Shown here piece by piece: positions 30,001 through 51,199 of a stretch of DNA of 64,000 nt (within the stretch, counting starts at the first letter, position 1; each line of letters starts with the position of its first letter). The stretch covers positions 3,224,001 to 3,288,000 of the forward strand of contig JAJFZO010000566.1 of assembly GCA_021397835.1 (NCBI GenBank). The letters run 5' to 3'. This DNA comes from Moringa oleifera. Taxonomy: Eukaryota; Streptophyta; Magnoliopsida; Brassicales; Moringaceae. Made by a program: the position numbers and the translations under genes. Below the pieces are notes generated by a model that was given only the letters and a program-made list of their open reading frames with translations, ran no database searches and had not been told where the DNA came from.

Positions 30001-30692
30001 AAAGGTATACATGCTGCCTATAAAACAAATCACCAAAACTGAAAACGCCTAAACAGGACTTACATTACACAACAAACAAATGATAACTAAGAAATAAAGA
30101 AGAATGACTGAAACCTGAATTGGAGTAGGCTTTGAATACCCCAATGCTTCACAAGCCCGGAGCAGAGGCCGTGAAAGATTGAGCTCCATGAAGGAATTTG
30201 CACGAAACGACACACCTTCAACAGGTGCAAAGAACGACTTGCTATCATTGGTGTTACAAGCATCATTACCCTCATCTTCTGAATTATAATCCTCCTAAAA
30301 AAATTTGGACCAAAAAAATAAATAAATTCGAAAGCATAACTGATTTTGTTAAGGGAAACTAAAGCCACAGATAGGTCTTAAGTTACTTGTTGGTCCGGTT
30401 CGGAGTCGGAGCGGTTATCATGGTGAAGGGCATTGGAGAGTTGTTGGCGAGCTTTGGAAATCTTGAAGTCGATAGATGTGGTGCTACCGCGAGCGTGTTC
30501 TTCAGCGACAGATTCAGAATATGAAGCGAAGTCCCAGGGGGGTTGGGTTCCGCGTCTTTTCGCAGGTTTCTCTTCTTCTCCTTCCTCGTCTTCTCCTTCT
30601 TCTCCTTCTCCTAGTTCTTCTTCTTCTTCTTCATGCTGCGAGTATTCTTGTTCTTCATCACTGGGAGCTTCGAACACAAAGCTTAAAGCCAT
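21086..30692 (-). CDS. RH28: DEAD-box ATP-dependent RNA helicase 28-like (RH28; Drs1/DDX27 type)
   Basis: Nineteen coding exons: 30692-30387, 30294-30115, 30017-29949, 29800-29694, 29496-29418, 29025-28852, 28464-28316, 28114-28019, 27576-27474, 26483-26421, 26080-26019, 25804-25708, 24483-24365, 24281-24239, 23502-23401, 22437-22339, 22240-22157, 21934-21663 and 21101-21086. They sum to 2220 nt (739 residues) with every junction in frame. Motifs in order: acidic N terminus; Q motif GYSKPTPIQ (154-162); Walker A AVTGSGKT (179-186); PTRELA (214-219); GG (242-243); TPGR (263-266); DEAD (288-291); SAT (319-321); ARGLDI (441-446); HRVGRTAR (466-473). A Lys/Arg-rich tail follows, including PRKKRRK, and the protein ends SRYKRR. 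Drs1/DDX27 relatives act in the nucleolus in 60S ribosomal subunit assembly. The last coding exon is only 16 nt. Arabidopsis RH28 is slightly longer. All core motifs are intact, so it is probably functional. Confidence 0.95.
22871..22891. repeat. (GA)n microsatellite in RH28 intron 15
   Basis: A perfect GA dinucleotide run of about 21 bp within the intron between the exons at 23401 and 22437. Confidence 0.8.
26982..27415. mobile_element. Candidate MITE inside RH28 intron 9
   Basis: TGCTGAATTTT at 26982-26992 and its perfect inverse AAAATTCAGCA at 27405-27415 frame about 430 bp of intronic DNA with no coding content. Similarity extends a few bases either side (AATGGTGCTGAAT against AAATGCTGAAT). 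A GGCCCTGTTTTCC phrase just outside the left arm resembles MITE ends. I found no target duplication, so class and exact ends are uncertain. Confidence 0.4.
27829..27942. repeat. 57-bp tandem duplication in RH28 intron 8
   Basis: Two consecutive near-identical copies, each beginning CCAACATCC and containing CGAGCAATTTTCATAAAAC, at 27829-27885 and 27886-27942. They differ at only a few positions, so the duplication is fairly recent. Confidence 0.85.
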
Positions 30693-30844
30693 GTAGGAAG
30701 GTCTGGCGTTGATACGTCAACTGGCCAGTAAAGTGAGCGAGAGAGGGGGACTAGCTGATTAGGGTTTTAAAGGTTTATGAGTAACGCCAGGAGAAGGGTA
30801 AGGTTAATTTGGCTACGGCCAGGACTTCAACCACGAACATTTAA
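30693..30844 (-). promoter_or_regulatory. Remaining native upstream region of RH28
   Basis: Only about 150 bp of non-transposon DNA separates the RH28 ATG from the end of the large MULE-derived repeat. This stretch is GC-balanced and presumably contains the 5' UTR. The core promoter must lie here or inside the transposon end. Confidence 0.45.
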
Positions 30845-32093
30845 GGGTAAATTGTTTTAAACCTAAAAAAATTTAAGAACCTAAATAAATCTAACCCTAT
30901 TTTTTGTTAACTTATTTTTATTTTTTTAATGATTTATTTTAAAAACTTATTAAAAACTTGTTGAATTTAATTTTTAATATTAAATTAATCCATTTCTATT
31001 ATTATGAAAAATTTAATTCTCTTTATATAAATTTATTTGTTATCCTATTAGGTCAAAATCAAAAAAAAAAAATCTTAAGAATATATATCTTTCTCCGTCT
31101 CACCTTTTTTTTTTTTTTCCAGTTCTCTTTCATTCATTAAATTTAACAATTTATTCAATTAATATATTTTTAAGATTTAATTTAATTAAAAATTTTAACA
31201 TCTATATATTAAGATCTAAAATTTTAATTTAACGTAGTTGTTGGTGTTTTCTTTTAATGGAATGGACAAAGATCCAATTACATCAAATTCAAGTATTTTG
31301 TTTACTTTGATTTTCATTTTTCCACCATTGTTTTGGTTTTAATGTTTAGTTAAAACTTTAAAATTGATATGTTAAGATACTTTTTATCTATTTGGATCAT
31401 CAATTTTATTTATAAATTTTAAATATTTTTGTTGACTATTAATATATTGATTATATATATTTTTATTATATATTTTAATTATTTTATTAAAAAAACGATT
31501 GATATGCTTGAAATAAACAATCGATATATTATCTACGTACTTTGTTTATCTATTAATTGTATATCAATCAACTATTAATCTGTTGATTATTCACTTATTC
31601 GTTGTATATATAATGATCATTTTTATTTATCAACTATTTAATTATCGATAGTGTATTATTAATCATTTATTTTAAGTATATATTTTAATTATCATCGATT
31701 GTCTATGTATTTACTATCTGTTTATCAACTATTTATCTATCGATTATTTATTTATTTATTATCTATTTATTGATAGTTTATTTATCAATTATTTATTTAT
31801 AGACTACTAATCTAGTTCACTTATTAATTACTAATATATTGATCACTTACCTATCAATTACTTATCTATTGATCGTTCATCTATAAATTACTCATCTATT
31901 GAATGTTCATCAATCCATTGCTAATTTAATGACTACTCATTTGTTGAGCATCTATTGATTCCTCATTTATATATTGACTACTTATTCATTAATCGTTCAT
32001 TTATTGACCTTCTTATCAACTATTAATATTAATAACTTAAGTCAAACATTCATATATATATATATATATATCCAATTTTTTTTCTTAAAATTA
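30845..32093 (+). repeat. Left arm of the MULE inverted repeat, outer part
   Basis: Outer 1.25 kb of the left arm. Its inverse counterpart lies at about 39200-40188. The inner 31490-32040 is packed with short diverged units built on TATCGATTATTTATC-like words. The arm resumes at 35844 after the CACTA-like insertion. Confidence 0.65.
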
Positions 32094-35000
32094 TACTACA
32101 AAAAAATAAGCTTTTTTATGATTAAAATTAGTCTTTGTTGACGGTTACAAAATTAACGTCTAATTAAGTGACATTAGAGATTATGATCCAAAGATGATAG
32201 TTACAAAAAAATAATTATCTAATTTAGTTTTTTTTTTTGACGATTACATATGCATTAGATGATGTTTACAAAAATCGTTATCTATTTGATTATTACAAAA
32301 ATGACAGTTCTGAGATACATTAGATGATGGTTGCAAAAATAAATATTAAATTTGATAATCAAAAACTTTAACATCGATCACGAAGAGACCAATATATATT
32401 TTTTAGAAGATAATTTAGTAATTTAAATATTTATTTTTTAGATAATTTTAGATCTTGGTTTTGTTTTAAAATCGATGTCTATAGTAAGTTTTTTGTTAAT
32501 TTTTTTATATTCATAAATTACAAATGATATTTCTCATAATCAATTACAATATAAATTACATTACAATTGATAATATTAATACATTAAATCTTATCAACCA
32601 TGAACTACTTCAAATAAAATAATATCATTGATCACATTTAACCTATGTAGTACCACACCCCAATATGTATAATTAACACTCTCATTAATTTTATAACATT
32701 ATACCATAATAATGATACACCAAAATCACACTGTAATATGCATCAATATCAAAGCATATCTTCATCATTGTACCACAACAATGATACATTAAAATCACCC
32801 TCCAATACATATCAATATCTTCATCATCAAACCATAATAATAATACACTAAAACCACATTCCAATATACGTCAACACACATTCATCATTTTCTCAACATT
32901 ATAATACAACATCAAAGCAAAAAAAAAAAAAAAAAAAACCTTATCTTTTATATGCATTCAAACATTATACTCTTCCAACAACATACTAAAATATTGTCAT
33001 ACAAAATATTCATTCAAAAAAACTAAATAACCGTTCCAACTATTACATCACAAATAAAAAGTACGTATAATATATATATATATATAATAATTATTCAAAT
33101 ATACAAAAGATGGCACAAAATAACTTATTCACCTTTTTTCCTCTGGTATGTCAACATGTACTCATAAAAATCTTTCTTTAGCTTATTTATTTTTGATTCG
33201 GCATATGTATTTTTATCTTTCAACTATATATATAAGAAAAATAAAGTAAATAAAATAGTTTTTTATAATAAACATATCAACTAATTAAGCAATTATTAAA
33301 CAACTTATAATTTTGTAAGAGAGACAGTATTACTATGTCTTCTTATGATGTCTCTCATATGCGTCATGATATAATAATCACATTCAACGTTAGAAGGTTA
33401 TATGGACACTATATTTAAACAATGAAAATGTCAACATACTAAATAAAAAAAAAACTAAGAAGAAACGAAAAGTTTTATCATATTATAAATACTTGAGTGA
33501 TGAAACTTTTAAAATTTTTTCATGAAAACCTAGGGGCATGAATTGCTATATATATCTTGAAACCACTGAAAGATAAATAACAATCATATATAATTGTAGA
33601 TATTCTAATTAAGATGTACTTTAGTAAATGTTACTTAACTCATATTGTGATTAGATTTTTCATATTATCTTGATCACTGTGCCCTAAAAGATCAAACACC
33701 ACATATTGTTAAAAGTCAGGTTCCACAACGATCAACATCCAATGTGTTTTATATTGTTAAATATAATTTCACTAAACATAAATTCAAAAATATATTTGTT
33801 ATTAAAAATTTATTTCTACTTACTTGACATTGTAGGGAAGCATTACAGAACCTCCATCGCTTACTCCATTCTTTCAACAAGATTTTGAACTTGCTCTTCA
33901 ATTTCATTATAGTTTTCTGTCGATATCATCATGAGACCAATAAATATATATTTACTATTTAGAGCACGTATAAAAAACACATTTTTATGAAGTTTTTTGC
34001 AACATAAGAATAAAGCATAACTAATAATATTAAAAAATAAGAAAAAAATAAGATAATAATAAAATGTGAGAGACATAATTAATGTAAGCTTATATGATGA
34101 TAACACTTAACTTCTTCATATAACAAAATTGTATGATATCATCCCTGTAAATACATATCGTGCCTTCAAAACAAAAAATCTTTACGCTTAATGGAATAGG
34201 TACTATCATATTTATGTTCATAACATAACACACATAATGATAATGAATATGATCAGTTCCAAATAGATTCTACATCTTGTTCTTGTACTGCAAACAATGG
34301 TGTCGATTTAGGTAACATTTTTAAAAAATTAAATAAATTATTTTAATAATTAATTTTTAAATTTAATAAAAATAATACATATTATAATATTATACTATAT
34401 GTAATCTAGGAGCAATTATCCACTGTGATGGTCAAGTGATATGTGTCTCAATAACATGAGATACACTAAGCATATCTGTATCAAAAATCAGTCAAGGTAA
34501 AGAAGCATTGGAGTTTGTAATTATAGTGATTTGGACTTTGATGTCACCCTTAACTACATTATGATGATAAGATTCAATGATAACAAATTCATTGGTCACA
34601 ACATCACCTATACTGCCAAGTGTCACTTGACACAATATATACCACAATTAAAAATACAAAGTAATATTTAATACTTTACATAAACTGAATAAAATATAGC
34701 ATACATTCACACTAGTCAGTAGAACATTTGGTGTGTATTAAAAGTGATGTGGGATCTTGGTCTTTGCATACATTCACACTATTTTGCTTATATTGTTACT
34801 AGCCTTACTAGAATGTTTATGATCAAAGAAAAGTAAGCGAGGTGTGTGCTCATGCCATCTAACAGATGTTGATGATCATTGATTTAACTCAATATTTTTC
34901 TTAGTTTTCTCATCATTAGTGGTGATTGTTAGTATCTTAACTCTTCTCTCAAAATAAAAAGTAATGGATACCGTAGAACCAACATTTCCCATACAACCAA

Positions 35001-35843
35001 AATGCTCTAGAGTACTAATTTCTGTCGTGATTACATCTTCTATGTATGACACTTTAAAAATACTTTATGTGACTTATACTATCAATTCATCTTGCAAATA
35101 ACCAATTAAAATGTAGATAATTCAATGGTTATTTGAAACTAAAAAAATTAAAAAATTATATAAAATCAAAAAATTTACTATTCTCTTAGCACATGTTCTA
35201 TCTGGTTCATTGATGGACTCGTTTATTGAATTAGCACGTGCTGTTTTTTATAATATTACATTATCAATATCTCCATCAGTACCAAAATTTTTTGTGCATT
35301 AGTAAACTCATCTAAATATTAATACAACAAGTGTAATTCTTATACATTAACACTATAAAAATAAATTTAACTTATAAGTTTAATCTTCGATCTTGCAAAA
35401 TCTTTACGCGATAAACGATGATCATAAACAGTCTTTTTTCTCCTTTCCATTTGGACTTTTGTTTGCTCCTGCAATAAAATTCAATATTTGGTTAACAACA
35501 TAAACATACATAAGATTATGATTAACTTAGTATACTTGAAATTCTATAGATAATCATAAGTTAACAAAATCATTCCAAATTGATAGTTAAATGATACTCC
35601 TGTATTCAGCAGGTGGATCTTTATGGTATTCTAGGTCATCCAAAATGAATAGGTATGAAGTAATTTCTCTCAGTTTCTCTCAAATCGACAGGTTACTTGA
35701 TATATCGAGAAATTAGGTTTTCATGACGGTTTTCACAATAACTGTCATCTATTATTTTTGAATTTTTATTTTTCACCTTTAATAATAGTTTTTGTAAAAC
35801 CATCATCTATTTAACATTATTAAAAATCTGTTTGGTTGTAGTA
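32094..35843. mobile_element. Nested CACTA (En/Spm)-like transposon, degraded
   Basis: The ends are TACTACAAAAAAA (32094) and TTGTAGTA (ending 35843), diverged forms of the CACTACAA terminus. Both ends carry the repeated GACGGTT..AACCGTC-type subterminal motifs typical of plant CACTA elements: GACGGTTACAAAA and GATGATAGTTAC on the left, GACGGTTTTCACAA and AAACCATCATCTATTTAAC on the right. Internally there is a minus-strand Ptta/En/Spm transposase remnant. The flanking triplets (TTA and AAA) do not match. The opposite MULE arm lacks this 3.75 kb, which marks it as an insertion. Confidence 0.65.
33130..35480 (-). pseudogene. Ptta/En/Spm plant transposase remnant
   Basis: Scattered minus-strand fragments with intervening stops resemble the plant transposase family Ptta/En/Spm (Pfam PF03004). 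Near 35390-35470 a basic block reads MERRKKTVYDHRLSRKDFA, matching that family's N/H-R-x-G/SRKSFA region. Near 35200-35290 there is KTARANS followed by acidic residues. Near 33130-33240 a Lys-rich coiled segment recalls the C terminus. Non-functional. Confidence 0.5.
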
Positions 35844-36559
35844 AAATTTTTGTATCCCATTCATATATATTGATTAATCATATCAACTATGGTTACTTTT
35901 AAATAGTTTAAAAATAAGATGTATAATAATTTCTTATTTGTTGTTGATTATTTACGAGCATGCCAACTATATTTATTTATGTATAATATGGAGGATAATA
36001 GATTGATTATAACAAAGAAGACAAATTCAACTACGTGTAACACTACTTTAAGATTACACATTCGGTATTTGTTCCATAATTTGCATCAAAATTTGAATAT
36101 TAATCTTAGAATGTACAAGACTAGACTATAGCTTGGATGTGAAAGAAAGGTTGAAATGCTAGTGATCAAGATAGAAAATGATGCCCAATTGATAGGTTTC
36201 ATCTTACACAACAATACACAAAAATGAATGGCACACTTTGTGTATAATGACTGAAACATTTCATACTTATCTATAAATTAATATGCAAAAGTAAAAGCAA
36301 GTGAGCTATGAACACGAGATTAGTGAACTTGATAATACCAAAAAAAAAATGAGAAATAATTTGTGCATGTAAAGGAACTTAAGAAGTTGAAAGAAAAGAG
36401 GATAATAAAGGTGATTTGAATGATGATGTTGAACTTGTACAAGTACTAGATAGTCAATACAAATCAACTGCTTATGTTCAAAATATTTTATATGACATAT
36501 TAAGATTTTATCATTTGACGTGATTGAAAAATGGTAAGTTTTTTTTTTTAAAAAAAAAA

Positions 36560-37660
36560 TATTGAGTTTCATGGATATTTGAGTTCATTTACAATAAAAA
36601 TAAAAATTGAAATTTCATATGAAGAAATCTATAACAGATTTATTTGTAACCATATATGTTAGTGATTCATCTGAATGGCAAGTAAAAGCTACTAAGGTAA
36701 TTTCATCTAACTATTTTGTAATTACTAAAAATTCTTATAATTAGTCACAAAACATTTTTCACCACGATCATCGTCAAGTAAGTATATGAGTTGGGTAATA
36801 ATGTAATGTGTTCAGTTAAAGTATGCAACGAGTTGGACATAACTATAGACTAAAAAATACTATTGAAGATACACATGAAGATTATGGTGTTATTATTCAC
36901 TATGATGAGGCTTGAGAGGCTAGAGAAAGTCCTTTGCCTTTAACAAAAAGAAGTTTAGAAAAATTATATGTTATTCTTCCATCATATTTTACGATGTTAG
37001 AAACTAAAAACTTAGGGACTGTGCCTCAAAATATTAATAGTAGCAACCTCTTTAAATACTTATTTATGCAATTGGATCATGCAAAAGAATGTTTTATATA
37101 TCTACTAAGCATATTATAACCATTGATGAAATATTTTAAAATATAAGTATTTATTTGAGTGATTGAGAAAAAAATATGAATAATTAGATATATTCGATAG
37201 CCTTTGATGTTGGTGATTCAGAAAGTGGTACTTCTTAAGAATGATTTTTATTGAGCTCAAACAAGTCATTTTGAACCACTTTTATTTGTTTTCTATACAA
37301 CACAAATATTAAGAAAGTTATTAAGAATGAGTTTTCTATAGCAATTCATTGGATATTTATATACCACTTGAATTAGAATTTTGATAACAAGATTTAAGCA
37401 TGTGGCTAAATTACCGTTTTTCTACAATGAAACTAATGCTTACTGGATATTAGAATTTTGGCACTTGATAGAACAAATCAATAGTATTGATCTTAATTAT
37501 GTATAATATGTCAGAGATATGAAAATTATAAAGTGGGTTCAAACATATTCTGATGGTAGGTGATACGATATCATGATTACCAATATTGTCAAATGTCTCA
37601 ATATTATACTGAAATATGCACATAAAAAAAAATTATCTATTACATCATTGGTTACTTACT
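36560..37660 (+). pseudogene. MULE transposase fragment, plus-strand copy
   Basis: Decayed MuDR-type transposase with stops and frameshifts. Recognisable blocks in order: SSEWQVKA (near 36670); YVILPSYFTMLETKNLGT then FKYLFMQLD (36968-37082); VGDSESGTS with EWF after a stop (near 37207-37250); and YDIMITNIVKCLNIILKYAHKK (near 37565-37625). These match the order LPSY-ML..NPGT, FKYLFMAL, DSENDASW.WF and YDIMTTNI of MULE transposases. The SWIM zinc-finger end is missing. It is truncated at the palindrome centre. Confidence 0.75.
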
Positions 37661-38480
37661 TTAAAGATTTACTGTAAAGTTGATTTTTTTAAAAGACATC
37701 CCATGAACAATTGTAGGGAACACATTCTTAATAGTTTTCTTAAATATTTATATTGCAATTAAAAAACAAACATAAGTGCTTTAGGATTACTGTTAGCTCC
37801 TATGAGCTTAGTAAAAAACTATTCCTACGAAGTATTATTTTTTAAATCACCAATACTAAAGGCTATCTGGTATATTTGATTATTCTCATCTTTTTCAATC
37901 ATTATAAATAAGGTGCAAGATATTTACTTTTTGAAAATGTTCCATCAATGATTGTGACAGATCTTACATTTATATGAAATTATTTCATGTATGAACTAAT
38001 TGACATAAACAAATATTATATGTGTCACAATCCCTAAATTCTTAACTTTTAATAACACAAAATTGGATGGAAGAATAACATATAACTGATTTAGACTTCC
38101 TTATACTAATGCAAAAACATTTTTTCTATCTCTTCAAGCCTTATTATAACTAATGTTAACATAGAAATCTTTATGTATGTCTACAATGACATTTTTTGAT
38201 CTACAATTATGTTTAATTCTTGCATAATTTAACTAAATATACTGCTTAATTACCTAATTACTTATTTGGTGATGATCATGGTGAAGAATGCTTTGTGAGT
38301 AAGTTTGAGTATTGATGAATTTGTTAATTATAAAATAGTAGGATGGAACTAATATAGTAGCTCTTACTTGTTATTTACTTACATGAATCACTAGTCATGC
38401 TATGAATTTTTATTTTTATTTTTTTTGCATTTCTTCATAAGAAAATCCAAATTCTTTTTCATTGTTAATAAACTCAAATA
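37660..38480 (-). pseudogene. MULE transposase fragment, minus-strand copy
   Basis: The opposing decayed copy. On the minus strand the blocks run: VNISYNKA, LYVILPSNFVLL with KNLGIVTHI (near 38060), FMSISSYMK (near 38000), VTIIDGTFSKSKYLAP (near 37930), then NNQIYQIAF and GDLKNNTS (near 37850). A shifted NCNINI-type stretch continues towards 37660. The order is that of MULE transposases, with many stops. It covers nearly the same protein region as the plus-strand copy and meets it at the centre. Confidence 0.7.
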
Positions 38481-40188
38481 TCTATGCAAATCCATCTTAC
38501 TAAAGAAAATTTACTCTTTCTTAATCACATAAAACAATGAGATCTCAATGCCACATGCAGTGTTTTGGCTTCCACCAAAATATAAAATATGAGTACTTGA
38601 TTCGTAATGATTGTTTAATGTTATTGTTAAGATCAATTTCATTATCTTCTTCATTCATAGTTTTTTCAAGTCTCCATGTATGCACAAATTTTTTTTTCAG
38701 TATTTACTATATTATCAAGCTCCCTAATCTTATGATCATTACTCCTTTGCTCTTGCTTTTACACGTGAGGTTATAAATAAGTAAGACATGTTCAATCATT
38801 ACACACAAAGATTCATACATTCTTGTATATTATTGTACAAGATGAAACTCATTAATTGATCATCATTTTTGATCTCGAACACTAGCATATCAACTTTTAT
38901 CTGATATCTAAATGACACACTAATTTTATCTACTTTATGATCAACACATTTAAGTTTTAATGCAAACAATGCAACAAATATCAATATGTGCAATTTTAGA
39001 GTACATGCAACATTTTGGCATTATGTATAGTTGAGTAAAATTATCTCTTTTGTTGTTGTTTGTCCATGGACTTCCATATTGAACACAAATAAGTACAGTT
39101 GACGTGCTTTCAAGCAATCAATGATAAATAAAAAATCATTATGTATTATAATTTCAAACTATTTAAAAGTAAAAATAGTTAATATGAGTGGTCGATATGG
39201 ATAATTGATATATAAGAATAAAATATGTGATTAGTAATTAAACAATCGATAAATGAATAACGAATAACTGAGCGATCGAAACATAAACGATCGATAAATG
39301 AATAATCAATAAATAAATGATCAATAAATGTGCGGTCGATAAATTGACAACTAACATAAATGGTTGAAATATATATTTAAAACATATGGTCAATAGATAA
39401 ACATCAATAAATGGATAATTGAAAAATAGACTATTGATATATATAAATATCTAATAAGTAAATCAACGGATGAGTTGTCAAGATAAAACGAATGATCGAT
39501 AAATGAATGATCGTTAATAAATAAATAATGTTGATCATTTATTTTAAGCTTTTTTTATCAACTAATTGTTAATTATTAACCACCAATTTTAATGAAATAA
39601 GTTAAATTTTGAACTAAAAAAATTTCATTGAAATTTTAACAATCGATAAATTAGTGATTAATAAATGAACCTGAAATAAATTTTTAATAAATATATTTGA
39701 AACCCATGATTAAAATTGATTATTGAAATAGATAAACTCTGTCTCAATATATCAATTTTAAGATTTTTATTAAGCATTAAATAATCGAACCAAATGTAAA
39801 ATTATAAATAAAAATCAAAGTAATGAACTTGTCCATTATGTTAAAAAGAAAAAATCATCAAATACTTCAAATCAAAATTTTAAATATCAATATATTGATT
39901 CTAAAAATCTTTAAAATATGTGAGTTCAAAAAATTTATAATTTGATAAAAAAATTAATGAATGAAACTAACCAATAAATGGACATGAATAGATATATAAA
40001 ACTTCTGAATTTTATGAGTAAAAAATTAAAAAATAGAGATTATTAATTTTTAAGGTTTCTATTATTTTAATATAATGGGATAAAAAAGTACAATTCATAT
40101 AAAAAAATTTTTAAAAAAAGCTAATATAAAATAACAGTTAGATTTGTTTAATCTCTCAAATTTTGTAGATCTTTTAAACAATTTATCA
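37690..40188 (-). repeat. Right arm of the MULE inverted repeat
   Basis: Inverse counterpart of the left arm without the CACTA-like insertion. The TATCGAT-rich short repeats occur at about 39210-39660. The region 38800-39190 matches, when inverted, the sequence at 35850-36250, sharing for example TTACTTTTAAATAGTTT. Confidence 0.65.
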
Positions 40189-43100
40189 TTTTAAGTATAA
40201 ATAAAAAAATAGAAATTATAATGTTTAGTACAATTTTTTCTATGAAAAAAAATTTAAAAAATAACATTAAAATCCCCAATTTTGGGTGTATCAACTAAAA
40301 TTGCATCATAATTTGAATCATGAGAATTTAATTTCATAAACGAAATTAACTTTTCCAGTAATTATAGCATTCCAAGTGAAGAAAGCCCAAGCAAAAGTAT
40401 AAAGTAAAATACTTAGTGGTAACCATAGGCCTAAAACAACTTACAAAATTTACAATTGCATAGATTATCCCTGGGATAAATAACCTGAAATAGAACTATT
40501 AGTGACAACCTTGTCTTTATATTATCAACTTACTTTGATGATTTCACTGATTATTTCAAGAGCTTCGGATATGGCAATTACAACTGTGAAATTACAAGAA
40601 CCAAATAAGATCCGAGACCCCCCACATGAACAAGTTCATAACACCAATCCTGAAGACAACAAGATTGAGCGAGACAGTAACCAAAACAGTAAGTTCTTAT
40701 TGAGAAAACAATCAGAGAAATGAATCAATATGCCTAAAAAAGATGTACACTATTTGGCGGACAAGTATAGGAGACTGAAACAAATGAGGGGACTTTAAGG
40801 TTTTGTTTTTATCAAAAGATGCCCTTCGACTTGGGCTGAGTCGATATCAGTTTCACTACTCTTAGGTTTCAGGCAGTTTATATAAAATGACAACCACTGT
40901 AGTCAGGAACAACAAGAATTTACTTCTGCCATTCCGTCAAGATAATCTCTCTTCATGCTGATGGTCTGCTAGAAAATCACCTTGGGACCGAAAGACCCAG
41001 CTCTAGAATAACACAGAGAAACCCAAATCAGAAACGGGATAACAGATTTAAGGGGGGGAAAAAACAATTCAAAAAAAGCAGAATATGTCGGAGGTGACGG
41101 CATCTAATCAAGAAGACTAAAACTAACTCTTTCTACTTTATTTCCAACCAATCATATGCGAGTCAATAGTTATATATCTAACTTAGCAGCCTTTGATTTT
41201 CTCAAGAATCGAACAGCTTGCTCAAGAGATATTGCATGTATAACCAAACCCATAATTAAGGACAAGCCATGAAACTAGTATCATCTAAGTAGTTATCCAA
41301 AATGTTCTTCTCAACTCATAAATGATGCAGCACTGACGAGAGATTCCACCTTTGACAACAGCATACATGTCTCACGTACCATCAATTCCATCTGGGAAAA
41401 GGAGCACTAGTGTTACTAGGGATTCTTAACCACTTACAAATGTATCACACTTCAGTGCAATGAAATCAAGCTAACACATTTGTATGCATAAGCTACAGTA
41501 AGGTTGTGCACTAAGATTACTGAAATCTCACTGTTTAACCCTCAAAGGTCTTCAACAAGTTATACTAACTGATTTTCAAGTTATTACCAGACTGCACCAG
41601 ACTGATACATTCTAATATCAGTAACTAAAAATGGATACACTGTGTATGTCTATCAACCAAGGAGTTACACAGACATTGAACAAGGTTAAAGCCATGGTTA
41701 CAGTGGGAAGGAACAAGAAGATACCTAGATAGGAAACTAAGAATTCGACATGTTCAAAAGGTACCCTGTAATAAATAGCACAGTTCCTACTGTGGTACTG
41801 TACTAGATCTAACAAGAAACACAGGGTCCACTAGGACCAGTAAGTTCAGTAGAATGCCACATTTTGCCAACACTTTCTACCATAGCTCAGGTTTCCTTTT
41901 TTTTTTTTTTTTTTAATCAGATACCATAGCTTGTGCTAAGACCTTCTAGTGCAGTAGATATACACTTTGTGTGCAAAAATGGGTCAAAAATTAGAGTCAG
42001 CGTATCAAAACCAATAGCATCAGAGCCAACCAAGAAGGAAAAGTAAATTGTAAAGCAAGGTTAACAAATAACAGGGAACATTAAGTTCTTGGTTACAATA
42101 CAATGGCATTTAGATGCATAAACTCATAAAAATCCACATTTTTTGTTTCTATATCCTTCCCCTGTCCCTGTTTTAACTCTGGTGGCAGTATGTAAGAAAG
42201 CCTTGAAATATTACTAAAACTGTAAGGAAATAACCAGACAATATAAAGACTTGCAAGTAGGCAGCTTGTCCATGCATCAGCCAATTTATCACTTCTCTTG
42301 TTATTTGCTGATTATTCCAGTTTCAAAATTATGTTCTTCTGATAAGAAAACATCCAATACCTTCACCAGGCCAATTATTTTCTTTCACAATTAATGTCTA
42401 TGTATGTGCTATCTACACAAAACTTCCACCACATAAATTTCAGAGCTTCAATGTAGCACATGGAATATAGTTCCACAAGGAAACGAAAGAGCAATTATCC
42501 CAATTAAACTAATACAGATTTTTATTCCTATAGCTAAGGAGTCATCTTGACTTCTAACAAAGTTGGAAATAGAAAAAATTATTGAAGCAACAGTTTCTAT
42601 TTTGATAATACTAAACATTTTTAAGATTATTGAGAGAGCATGCATGGTTTCGTACTTGACAAAGATGCAGTGGCCTGTCACTGTAAATTCCCAGTTTATT
42701 TCTTTCAAGGATATTGAAATTATGTGCCTGCAGGAACCAAATATTCTAGTCAGATAGTGTTAAGACACATGAAAACACTTTTGCTTCATTTTTGAGTCCC
42801 CCATTTGTTTTTTGTAAATAAGTTACAGCCCTGTAATTCCACAGAAAAAGCAAAAAAGGGAACCTTACCAAATGAGTGCACCAAATCTAACCACCTCCAA
42901 CAAAGAACAAACCCTTCTCTGAACATCCATTTATGTGCTTAAAGTTTTAGATGTATTTACTTTACTTTGTGGATTTTGTCCATGCATCCTTCCATGCACC
43001 AATGAACACGTTTACTCATAAAACAGACAACAACTTCAACACCAATCCCACAAGCTTATCAGAAAACCAAAATAAAAGAGTATGGCCAACATCTCTCTGA

Positions 43101-48646: not shown

Positions 48647-49759
48647 TCATGGGCGCAGAAGCAGAATCAGAAGAGCCACGAAGAAAGAAATGGTCAAAGA
48701 ATCGGACATTGATCTGCTTGTAAGACCAACGCCCTTGTTAGAAGAATTCTCAGATTCCAACAGAGAACTGAACTCGAAGTTAGGGTTTGACCCGTACAGC
48801 GCCTGGACTCCCTCCACGTCGTCGATCTTGAGGTCGACTTTTTTGGTTCTGGGGCTCACACTCGGGTACATCACCGCCTCCTTCACCGAGCTGTGAGCCA
48901 GCCCCAGTAAGTGACCGATCTCGTGGGTCGCCACCGATTCCAAATCGACGGCCGCTCTTGACTTGACGTCGTTGAAATTGACTGCCCATGTTTCCGCCGC
49001 GTCCAGGTGGAACCTCCCGTTCTCCGGGGAGAACGCGTGGGCTAGGACTCCAAGTACCCCGTCGAACGGCTCTCCGTCGCCGTGGTCACCGTGGTAAAAC
49101 CCGATCTTTATGTCGGCGGATTCATAGTCTACTACCTCAGTGAAACTCACCGGAATCACCTTCGCCCATCGGGAAAACGCGCGGCTGAAAGCGGCCTTGA
49201 TGTCCCTTAAGCTTATGTAATCGATCATGTCCTTCATCGAGAAAGCGTACGTCAGCATCACGGGACTCGCGCGTGTCCACCTGGGCTGGCCGTAAAAATA
49301 CGCGTAGTGTTTTCTCGCATGGAGACCGCTATTGCCACGCGTCGCCTTATGGCTACTGGTGTGAGCATCGCTAACGCCACACCTCGGTGACATGATAACT
49401 GAGATAGTAGCCGCGTCGAGCTCACCGCTAACCGGAAGCCCAAGTCTTTGCTGGTAAAGACTAACGGCCGATTGAAGATCCGCGTCGAAAACATCCGTGA
49501 AATTCCCCCCCGCATCAGGATTAACCATCAGGTAACCGAAACGGTGGAAGTACTTCTTCAGCTCCGAGATGCCGGTGACGTTACTTCCCTTCTCGGCGTC
49601 GAGGAAGCGAGTGAAGCCGAGCCAAGTCCAGTTGGCGGCGCGGCTGCTGGCGTCTGTTATTACAGTTACAGAGCCCGGTACATTTCTGGCGGGAAAACAA
49701 GGGAAGAGAAGGAAGAAGGAGAAGAAGATGATATGGGAATAACTGAATAACGGAAACAT
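48647..49759 (-). CDS. Plant matrix metalloproteinase (matrixin, MEROPS M10A)
   Basis: Intronless gene for a 370-residue secreted zinc endopeptidase of the cell surface. In order: a hydrophobic signal peptide (about 1-23); a propeptide with a peptidoglycan-binding-like segment (about 60-122); the cysteine switch PRCGVSD (125-131, Cys127), which keeps the zymogen latent; and a catalytic domain from about 150. The domain has structural-metal histidines around FYHGDHGDGEPFDG (221-234), the zinc site HEIGHLLGLAH (His279, Glu280, His283, His289) and a Met-turn VMYPS (Met297). A Ser-rich spacer and hydrophobic tail (about 352-370) suggest a GPI anchor. There is no haemopexin domain, as usual in plants. 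All catalytic residues are present. The coding region is much richer in GC than its surroundings. Substrates in plants are poorly known; relatives act in growth and defence. Resembles At2-/At3-/At5-MMP; the exact orthologue is undecided. Confidence 0.95.
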   Translation of the reverse strand: MFPLFSYSHIIFFSFFLLFPCFPARNVPGSVTVITDASSRAANWTWLGFTRFLDAEKGSNVTGISELKKYFHRFGYLMVNPDAGGNFTDVFDADLQSAVSLYQQRLGLPVSGELDAATISVIMSPRCGVSDAHTSSHKATRGNSGLHARKHYAYFYGQPRWTRASPVMLTYAFSMKDMIDYISLRDIKAAFSRAFSRWAKVIPVSFTEVVDYESADIKIGFYHGDHGDGEPFDGVLGVLAHAFSPENGRFHLDAAETWAVNFNDVKSRAAVDLESVATHEIGHLLGLAHSSVKEAVMYPSVSPRTKKVDLKIDDVEGVQALYGSNPNFEFSSLLESENSSNKGVGLTSRSMSDSLTISFFVALLILLLRP

Positions 49760-51199
49760 GGGGTAGTTATGTGGGGATTAGAGCCCTTTTTTGTGGGAAG
49801 GGACTTGCAGAGATGGGTTAGGCCTTTTTATTTTAGGCTACTCTGATTAAAATAAAAATAAAAATTTATTTATCTACATGATTAATATGCCATTAACATA
49901 ATTAATCACTTCTTCTAAACAATGTAAATAGTGTAATTAAGGTAAGATGGGCCAGCAAAATTCAAGGAGAAAGCTACGAGATCTCTCCGTGGCTCCCCCT
50001 TTTTATTTCCGGATTCCGGCCGGTGGGTTAACCACTTTCTTAATTTCTATTTTATTTTTAATTAACTTATCATATGTTTTTAATTATTTTTATTTTATTT
50101 TTAATTAAATTACCCATTTTTAAAATTTTATTGAGAGACTGAGAATAGGTAGTTTAATTTGATTAATATTTTTGGAAAAAATGAAAATTTAAGTGCGTGT
50201 ATAACAAGCATAGTTGAATTTGATTTTATTCCAGTTTGGTTAAGGTTTACTTTGTTGGTTGACCAAATTAGTTGAACTTCAAATGTATTTACTTGTGGAA
50301 TCGGTTTCTAACTGAGGGAGGCTTCTCTCACAATGACTTGTACGAGTTGATAATCCACAAGATTAGATGGATGATTACGTGATGCATGAACTAATTAATT
50401 TAAGATAAGATAATATGTATATTTTATAAAAATATATATTAAAAAAATAAAGCCAAACCACATTTGATTATTTAATTTCATGAACTATAGACGGTTAATT
50501 ACATCAACAACTTATGTTTTAGATATTTTATTAAATCGATATTTTTATATTATTATCATAAATTATAAAAATACTCTTTCAATTTATTAAAAAAACTTAG
50601 CATAAATTCAAATATAAAATTTTTATTTTAATTGAAAATACGCATTTTACAATGTTTTTACTATAAAATTTCTATCCAAAAAAGATATTGATAAATTAAT
50701 AATAAATATTTAATAATTAATTTTAAAATTTATTAAAATTAGTTTTTTTTTCCTCCCTCTCATGCAACTTAGTAGAAATAAATAGAATTCAATAATACGG
50801 GATGGTGACTCAAAATATCATAAAATATAAATGAAGAATAAAATTAATTAAGATAGCATGGTGGCTCATTCAAGCTTGGAAATCAGGACGATTAGGGTCC
50901 AAGTCTTCTTTGATTTCGCTTTCGGAGACGCCATGAACTTTATCTTCAATGACGTAACCCTAATTAACAATAAGTCCAATTTGGTTGCGACTTGCTTATT
51001 TCGTTTTCCATGTGCCTATCAAAGAGTCCCGTTGTGCTCTCCCTTAATCTTTTTTTTTATTTGGTTGGTTCGTTCTTTAAAAAATGCACATTTGGCAATA
51101 TGGAAGTGTTTGATCATTTGTCTTTGATTATCTTTATTGTAATAATTGCATGAATTAACGCAGGAGATTGACTATAATATAAATATAAAAAATTATAAA

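Follow-up and report, generated by a model that had tools for sequence, protein, structure and literature searches.

A decayed palindromic Mutator-like element with a Mu killer-like layout in the genome of Moringa oleifera

A stretch of 64,000 nucleotides from the Moringa oleifera genome (279.5 Mb; assembly GCA_021397835.1, contig JAJFZO010000566.1, written C25:3224001-3288000 and called the window here) carries at 30846-40187 a palindromic Mutator-like element (MULE). Its ends are mirror images of each other down to ~37.7 kb, with a single interruption of 3750 bases in the left arm, and the arms are front halves of a single MULE family, each comprising an outer end, a TATCGAT-rich tract and the first part of the transposase gene. 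We interpret the element as a fossil palindromic MULE with the layout of Mu killer from maize, in which two 5' halves were joined tail to tail in one event and both 3' ends were lost, and give this interpretation a probability of roughly 0.48. The palindrome is real and its origin by inverted duplication is possible but unproven; what is left is a dead element of a known kind whose layout is rare.

The two arms align end to end

BLASTN comparison of 29.5-41.5 kb with itself paired 35846-37354 inversely with 39219-37698 (67.2% identity over 1581 columns, E 3e-129), 31128-31433 with 39966-39686 (68.7%) and, within the tract, 31578-31860 with 39471-39202. Scoring by BLAST with match 1/mismatch -1 was swamped by AT-rich noise, the window having a GC content of 28%, and, therefore, a composition-aware matrix and randomised controls were adopted. 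The matrix was derived from the left-right alignment itself and later made strand-symmetric; because it was estimated on that alignment, its identities (roughly 72-80%) lie above the 67-70% of BLAST. After the insert had been removed from the left arm, local alignment with this matrix ran from end to end, 30846-37354 against 40187-37698, with a score of 2003, and 60 first-order Markov randomisations reached at most 145. The outermost 282 and 221 bases alone scored 98, which 0 of 300 randomisations attained (maximum 83), and the outer end, the middle of the terminal inverted repeat (TIR) and the tract, each aligned alone, were unmatched by any of 300 randomisations. With the insert left in, the gap was placed in four pieces across 31910-35866, since short AT-rich scraps within the insert align by chance.

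The homologous arms measured 2761 (left, insert excluded) and 2490 bases (right) and were 71% identical on common columns; 343 bases of the left copy (37355-37697, plus strand) had no partner in the arm alignment and lie between the arms as the loop of the palindrome. A reading made from the letters alone (the sequence-only reading) had described a 9.3-kb palindromic MULE with arms of about 2.5-3 kb that include transposase sequence, and this was borne out by the alignment score, by a partial transposase in both arms and by Pfam matches in genomic relatives (see below). It had also predicted a single antidiagonal broken only by 3.75 kb in the left arm, and self-alignment gave just this. The inverse repetition around a centre proved real, with the centre at ~37.695 kb and not at 37.66 kb. 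Two complete MULEs with their own TIR pairs, named there as the arrangement that would speak against a palindrome, were not seen, as no inner second TIR pair appeared in the self-comparison. Palindromes are a known assembly error, and the structure might be a false palindrome of this origin; the arms would then be near identical, yet ~29% of the aligned sites differ and the insert is present in one arm only, and we regard the chance of an artefact as negligible.

A MULE family in the genome

DNA searches with both arms matched at least 26 genomic places (places less than 10 kb apart were merged, and the number is a lower bound). Among the matches listed, both orientations were found at 1 of the 26 places, the window's own, and a single orientation at the other 25. 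Pfam comparison of seven pieces of genomic relatives gave two matches that reached the cut-off, DBD_Tnp_Mut in copy C62 (E 9.8e-7) and MULE in copy C11 (E 4.2e-6), as well as sub-cut-off matches to SWIM in C563 and to MULE in C517. The window's own five pieces had no Pfam match; the assignment of the element to the MULEs comes from DNA homology to these relatives, by which it is identified as a MULE. The family tip, GGTGATTTRTTTAAAA-like, was present in 5 of 28 other loci at a score >75 (a score uncalibrated by randomisation); it agrees with the edges at 30846 and 40187, and both outer ends carry it.

The left terminal repeat (30846-31490, plus strand), the 5' TIR of the left half-element, aligns with the right end and has the tip common to other genomic copies. 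Its inner limit was taken from a short copy at C523:3.12 Mb, whose transposase region is followed after 0.43 kb by an inverted TIR that has neither tract nor transposase and whose tip is unrecognisable. On the basis of this copy the normal TIR of the family would be ~0.65 kb long, and tract and transposase would not normally be part of the 3' end. This length fits the view of the sequence-only reading that a normal MULE TIR is far shorter than these arms; passages of PMC3903597 give TIRs of 100-500 bp for TIR-MULEs and target-site duplications of 8-11 bp for MULEs. Further inwards, the left arm has a TATCGAT/TATTGAT-rich tandem tract of 15/30-bp units with its inner edge (31491-32093, plus strand), delimited by self-comparison and arm alignment. 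In the right arm, the TATCGAT-rich tract occupies 39220-39639 (minus strand), its boundary with the TIR being set by alignment with left 31490, and the right terminal repeat, the 5' TIR of the right half-element, follows at 39640-40187 (minus strand; alignment and shared tip). Long TIRs align at both ends of the element. The long composite ends with a tract of short-unit repeats resemble Foldback-type elements, and tract and transposase could belong to the normal terminal repeats of the family, which would then itself be a Foldback-type MULE. We hold this to be very improbable: only one orientation was seen at 25 of the 26 places listed (lower bounds), and neither tract nor transposase accompanies the second TIR of the short copy at C523:3.12 Mb.

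Two other arrangements of family ends were noted. At locus L003 (C559:0.668 Mb), two family TIRs are located end to end in inverse orientation at ~745-1795, one with a clear GGTGATTTGTTCAAAAAAACC tip and the other without a recognisable tip, which suggests neighbouring insertions of this MULE family. At C24:490-579 kb, four same-orientation matches to ~31203-31320 of the window are spread across ~90 kb, perhaps a duplicated segment holding one MULE end.

Two front halves meet without filler, and one carries a later insertion

The left partial transposase gene (35844-37697, plus strand; recognised by DNA homology to relatives with domains) contains many stops and is directed to the centre. It ends near 37695, and the right copy (37698-39219, minus strand; placed by self-comparison and relatives), which is read in the opposite direction, begins immediately at the equivalent of left 37354. 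The right half thus ends 343 bases earlier than the left half, and the tail-to-tail junction (37690-37698), where the alignments of the left and right copies to relatives meet, has no filler. In eight of nine single copies, common sequence continues ~0.4-0.9 kb past the equivalent of 37696 with pair scores of 228-1055; the ninth, C62, had pair scores of 69-114, which is background. BLAST of the C667 stretch beyond the fusion point found matches at C11, C563, C82, C517:6.02 Mb, C12, C572 and C519:1.61 Mb. Since the family sequence runs past the fusion point in eight of nine relatives, both back (3') halves are missing from the element. Searches of genomic copies did not reveal where exactly the family sequence ends on its 3' side. 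A truncation point shared by the right half and C665 (37353/37354) was considered and dropped: BLAST homology of C665 ends near the equivalent of 37150, and its tail has no clear match.

CACTA elements are defined by CACTA ends, subterminal repeats, a 3-bp target site and an En/Spm transposase. The interruption of the left arm (32094-35843, 3750 bp) has the ends TACTACAA.../...TTGTAGTA, with 12 of 16 end positions matching, and subterminal repeats of the GATGATGGTTGCAAAAA type. Five translated pieces had no Pfam match at the cut-off (one chance-level match to SbmA_BacA, E 0.05), and, therefore, the label CACTA-like is based on the ends and the subterminal repeats; the triplets flanking the insert, TTA and AAA, differ. 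With 40 of 219 candidates scored, relatives in the genome gave at least 68 matches, the longest of them at 72-74%, and judged by these the insert is a member of an abundant, old CACTA-like family. Because it is confined to one arm, it arrived after both arms existed, so that the 3.75-kb gap is best described as a separate, later CACTA-like insertion. Eight matches of the insert family end at the equivalent of 35645-35647, ~200 bp inside the apparent right end.

Flanks and genomic setting

No family remnant was found in the 1.4-1.5 kb outside either end. CATTTAAGG (30838-30846) and CATTTTAAG (40187-40195), each sharing one base with the TIR tip, match at 7 of 9 positions and may be the two copies of a 9-bp target-site duplication. 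The match is weak, as an equal one occurred in 2.7% of random edge pairs and in 7.9% of AT-matched pairs (27 registers allowed for, 20,000 draws each); we take it as a lean toward arrival as a single unit, not as proof. A helicase-like gene on the minus strand, which we presume to be DEAD-box helicase-like from motifs in its frames, has its ATG at 30692, and the element's left end is 154 bp upstream of this start codon; the first two exon pieces of the gene had no Pfam match. MULEs are usually located near promoters. An empty site was not found in the genome: the right flank matches only itself, and the five other matches of the left flank (45-89 bases) all fall where the coding sequence of the helicase gene begins, which is repetitive. 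A tblastn comparison of the helicase gene's first exon with plasmids gave no match and was uninformative. Farther away, the window contains a single-frame matrixin gene (48647-49777, minus strand) with Peptidase_M10 (E 3.1e-51) and PG_binding_1.

One event or two insertions

Several results weigh against an origin of the palindrome in one event. By BLAST score, among the non-self matches listed, C667, C62 and C563 rank above the right arm as relatives of the left arm (right arm fourth), and C62, C667, C563 and C665 rank above the left arm as relatives of the right arm (left arm fifth). Four of 12 copies are closer to the left arm than the right arm is (C667, C563, C11 72%, C82 73%) and five of 12 are closer to the right arm than the left arm is (C667, C62, C563 72%, C11, C82 74%); the remaining compared copies are as distant from each arm as the other arm, or more so. 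Trees were calculated with 9 rows (7 copies) and with 14 rows (12 copies, picked for overlap from 21). Both were star-like, and the arms were unpaired in the free tree, which was better by 3.0 and 3.1 units of log-likelihood. With the arms held together, the shared stem amounted to 0.006 versus end branches of 0.22-0.24, and in 95% of 40 bootstraps it was shorter than 0.0245 (largest 0.038). Further, no second copy of the palindrome was present among the 26 listed places, and the target-site match has a p of 0.079 with AT-matched edges.

Pairing of the arms was not rejected in the two trees (approximately unbiased test, p 0.18 and 0.25), and the two end branches were similar in length (0.24 and 0.21). 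Left and right arm shared 17 derived sites, the highest raw count of 21 pairs (1063 gap-free columns, 7 rows); relative to singletons they ranked fourth of the 21, and such sites also arise when both arms fall outside the group of the other five copies. The arms are as diverged as family copies in general, and the history that they shared after the family had spread would amount to at most about a tenth of the arm age. The distances, the tree and the short shared stem make a duplication well after the spread of the family appear very unlikely. If a resident MULE had recently been duplicated in place in inverse orientation, the palindrome itself would be explained, but the arms would then be closest to each other, which they are not; we find this explanation hardly credible. 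The inverted MULE duplication proposed in the sequence-only reading is partly supported: the palindrome and its transposase-bearing arms are confirmed, whereas in-place duplication of one MULE is unproven. A duplication fits only if it took place within the burst of the family, which is possible. Both a palindrome formed during that burst and two independent copies fit the data.

In the latter case, two members of the MULE family would have inserted independently, tail to tail, at a promoter-near spot, and a later deletion would have taken out both 3' halves with the DNA between them and so fused the remainders. The arms are indeed not mutual nearest relatives, the inverse end-to-end TIRs at L003 imply that neighbouring insertions occur, and a deletion junction would resemble the observed join. 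On the other hand, this course of events needs two of the family's detectable copies, a few dozen in 280 Mb, to have landed close together and suitably oriented, and a deletion with one end inside each; it also predicts unrelated target sites at the outer flanks, where a match at 7 of 9 positions, though a weak one, was seen. We consider it a serious candidate, at somewhat less than even odds.

The single-event origin, which we narrowly favour, draws on the end-to-end inverted homology, the loss of both 3' parts, the absence of filler, the family tips at both ends, the remnant-free flanks, the possible target-site duplication (7 of 9) and the precedent of Mu killer with its identical layout, and the small positive shared stem of 0.006 is compatible with it. 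While the MULE family was active, an element in transposition would have switched strands or been repaired abortively, and this one aberrant event would have left a tail-to-tail palindrome with a 343-base loop. The palindrome would have reached this site as a single unit with a 5' TIR at each end. As long as the arms were alike, it may have been a source of small RNAs directed at the transposase and of RNA in hairpin or antisense form; such a role is proposed for Mu killer in maize.

Decay and pairing of the arms

The arms contain no stop-free frame of more than 92 codons and the transposase frames are full of stops; judged from its reading frames, the element looks inert today. Computed folding of 36300-38750 paired 742 of the 984 homologous columns in register. 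Controls in which the right arm was replaced by C667 or C11 gave 709 of 1018 and 586 of 932, respectively, and a shuffled right arm gave 0 of 183. Since the C667 and C11 controls pair similarly, in-register pairing is about what any two family copies give.

Differences between the inner arms leaned to G-U-compatible changes (161 versus 122, p 0.024), with 214 versus 186 over the full arms; eleven such comparisons were made and the p values are uncorrected. The right arm (37698-39219) showed the same G-U lean, or transition strand bias, against C563 (p 0.008), C62 (0.047), C667 (0.125), C11 (0.16) and C665 (0.40), and the left arm had no G-U-compatible lean against other copies. Selection for pairing was set aside as an explanation because the lean occurs against other copies too and does not hold over the full arms. 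To us it looks like a peculiarity of the right arm; weak selection on this arm is also possible. No good sign of selection on the hairpin emerged from the fold and G-U comparisons.

Comparison with known elements and meaning of the fossil

Mu killer is the standard example of a rearranged transposon that starts the silencing of a whole family, and to our knowledge it is essentially the single known case. As described in passages of PMC3440606, it is a derivative of maize MuDR in which an inverted duplication of two partial mudrA copies is bounded by TIRs that both derive from the mudrA end; it sits between host genes, its halves are co-linear with mudrA, into which they reach by 1.298 kb, and the centre resisted sequencing. 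According to the same passages, silencing by Mu killer is demonstrated and tied to short antisense transcripts; the original read-through model is disputed and a long hairpin is a possible contributor. Compared with this description, the element in the window likewise has both outer TIRs from the transposase-side (5') end, each followed by the tract and 5' transposase sequence. Two partial transposase copies meet in inverse orientation, the 3' part and the other TIR are absent, and a host gene is close. It differs from the maize element as described there in its arms of 2.5-2.8 kb, which are ~71% alike and stop-rich, in its CACTA-like insert and its readable centre; it is older, it is known here from sequence alone, and its origin by a single duplication is not established.

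Two other groups are less similar to the window element than Mu killer is. MULEs with multiple or tandem TIRs, whose mechanism of formation is unclear, are described in passages of Ferguson and Jiang 2012 (PMC3310237); like these, the window element carries extra copies of its own ends. The elements of that paper are for the most part non-coding and usually carry their extra ends in tandem, whereas in the window whole 5' halves are inverted, and no tandem TIR was seen in the window element. Foldback-type Mutator elements, Tm1 in nematodes and FARE in Arabidopsis, the latter cited in the same source, are treated in passages of PMC3169594. They share with the window element long composite inverted ends, 9-bp target sites (possible in the window) and, in some, a MULE-type transposase. 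In the elements described there the transposase lies between the arms, whereas in the window it lies within both arms, and, unlike them, the palindrome in the window is a single case among the 26 listed family places.

The element could be what remains of a natural Mu killer that formed during the spread of the MULE, made small RNAs against the transposase beside the helicase promoter and helped to end the burst. We regard this further step as unlikely, and decay is too far advanced to tell a former silencer from two wrecked copies fused by chance. If true, it would go along with a star-like tree in which all copies decayed together, and another plant would then provide a second case; no second natural Mu killer was named in the titles and abstract openings among the literature matches listed. 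Should it consist of no more than two fused copies, the element would warn that chance can also produce the Mu killer layout. As a fossil with the layout of Mu killer that is as old as the radiation of its family, it would be a place to test whether such palindromes end bursts.

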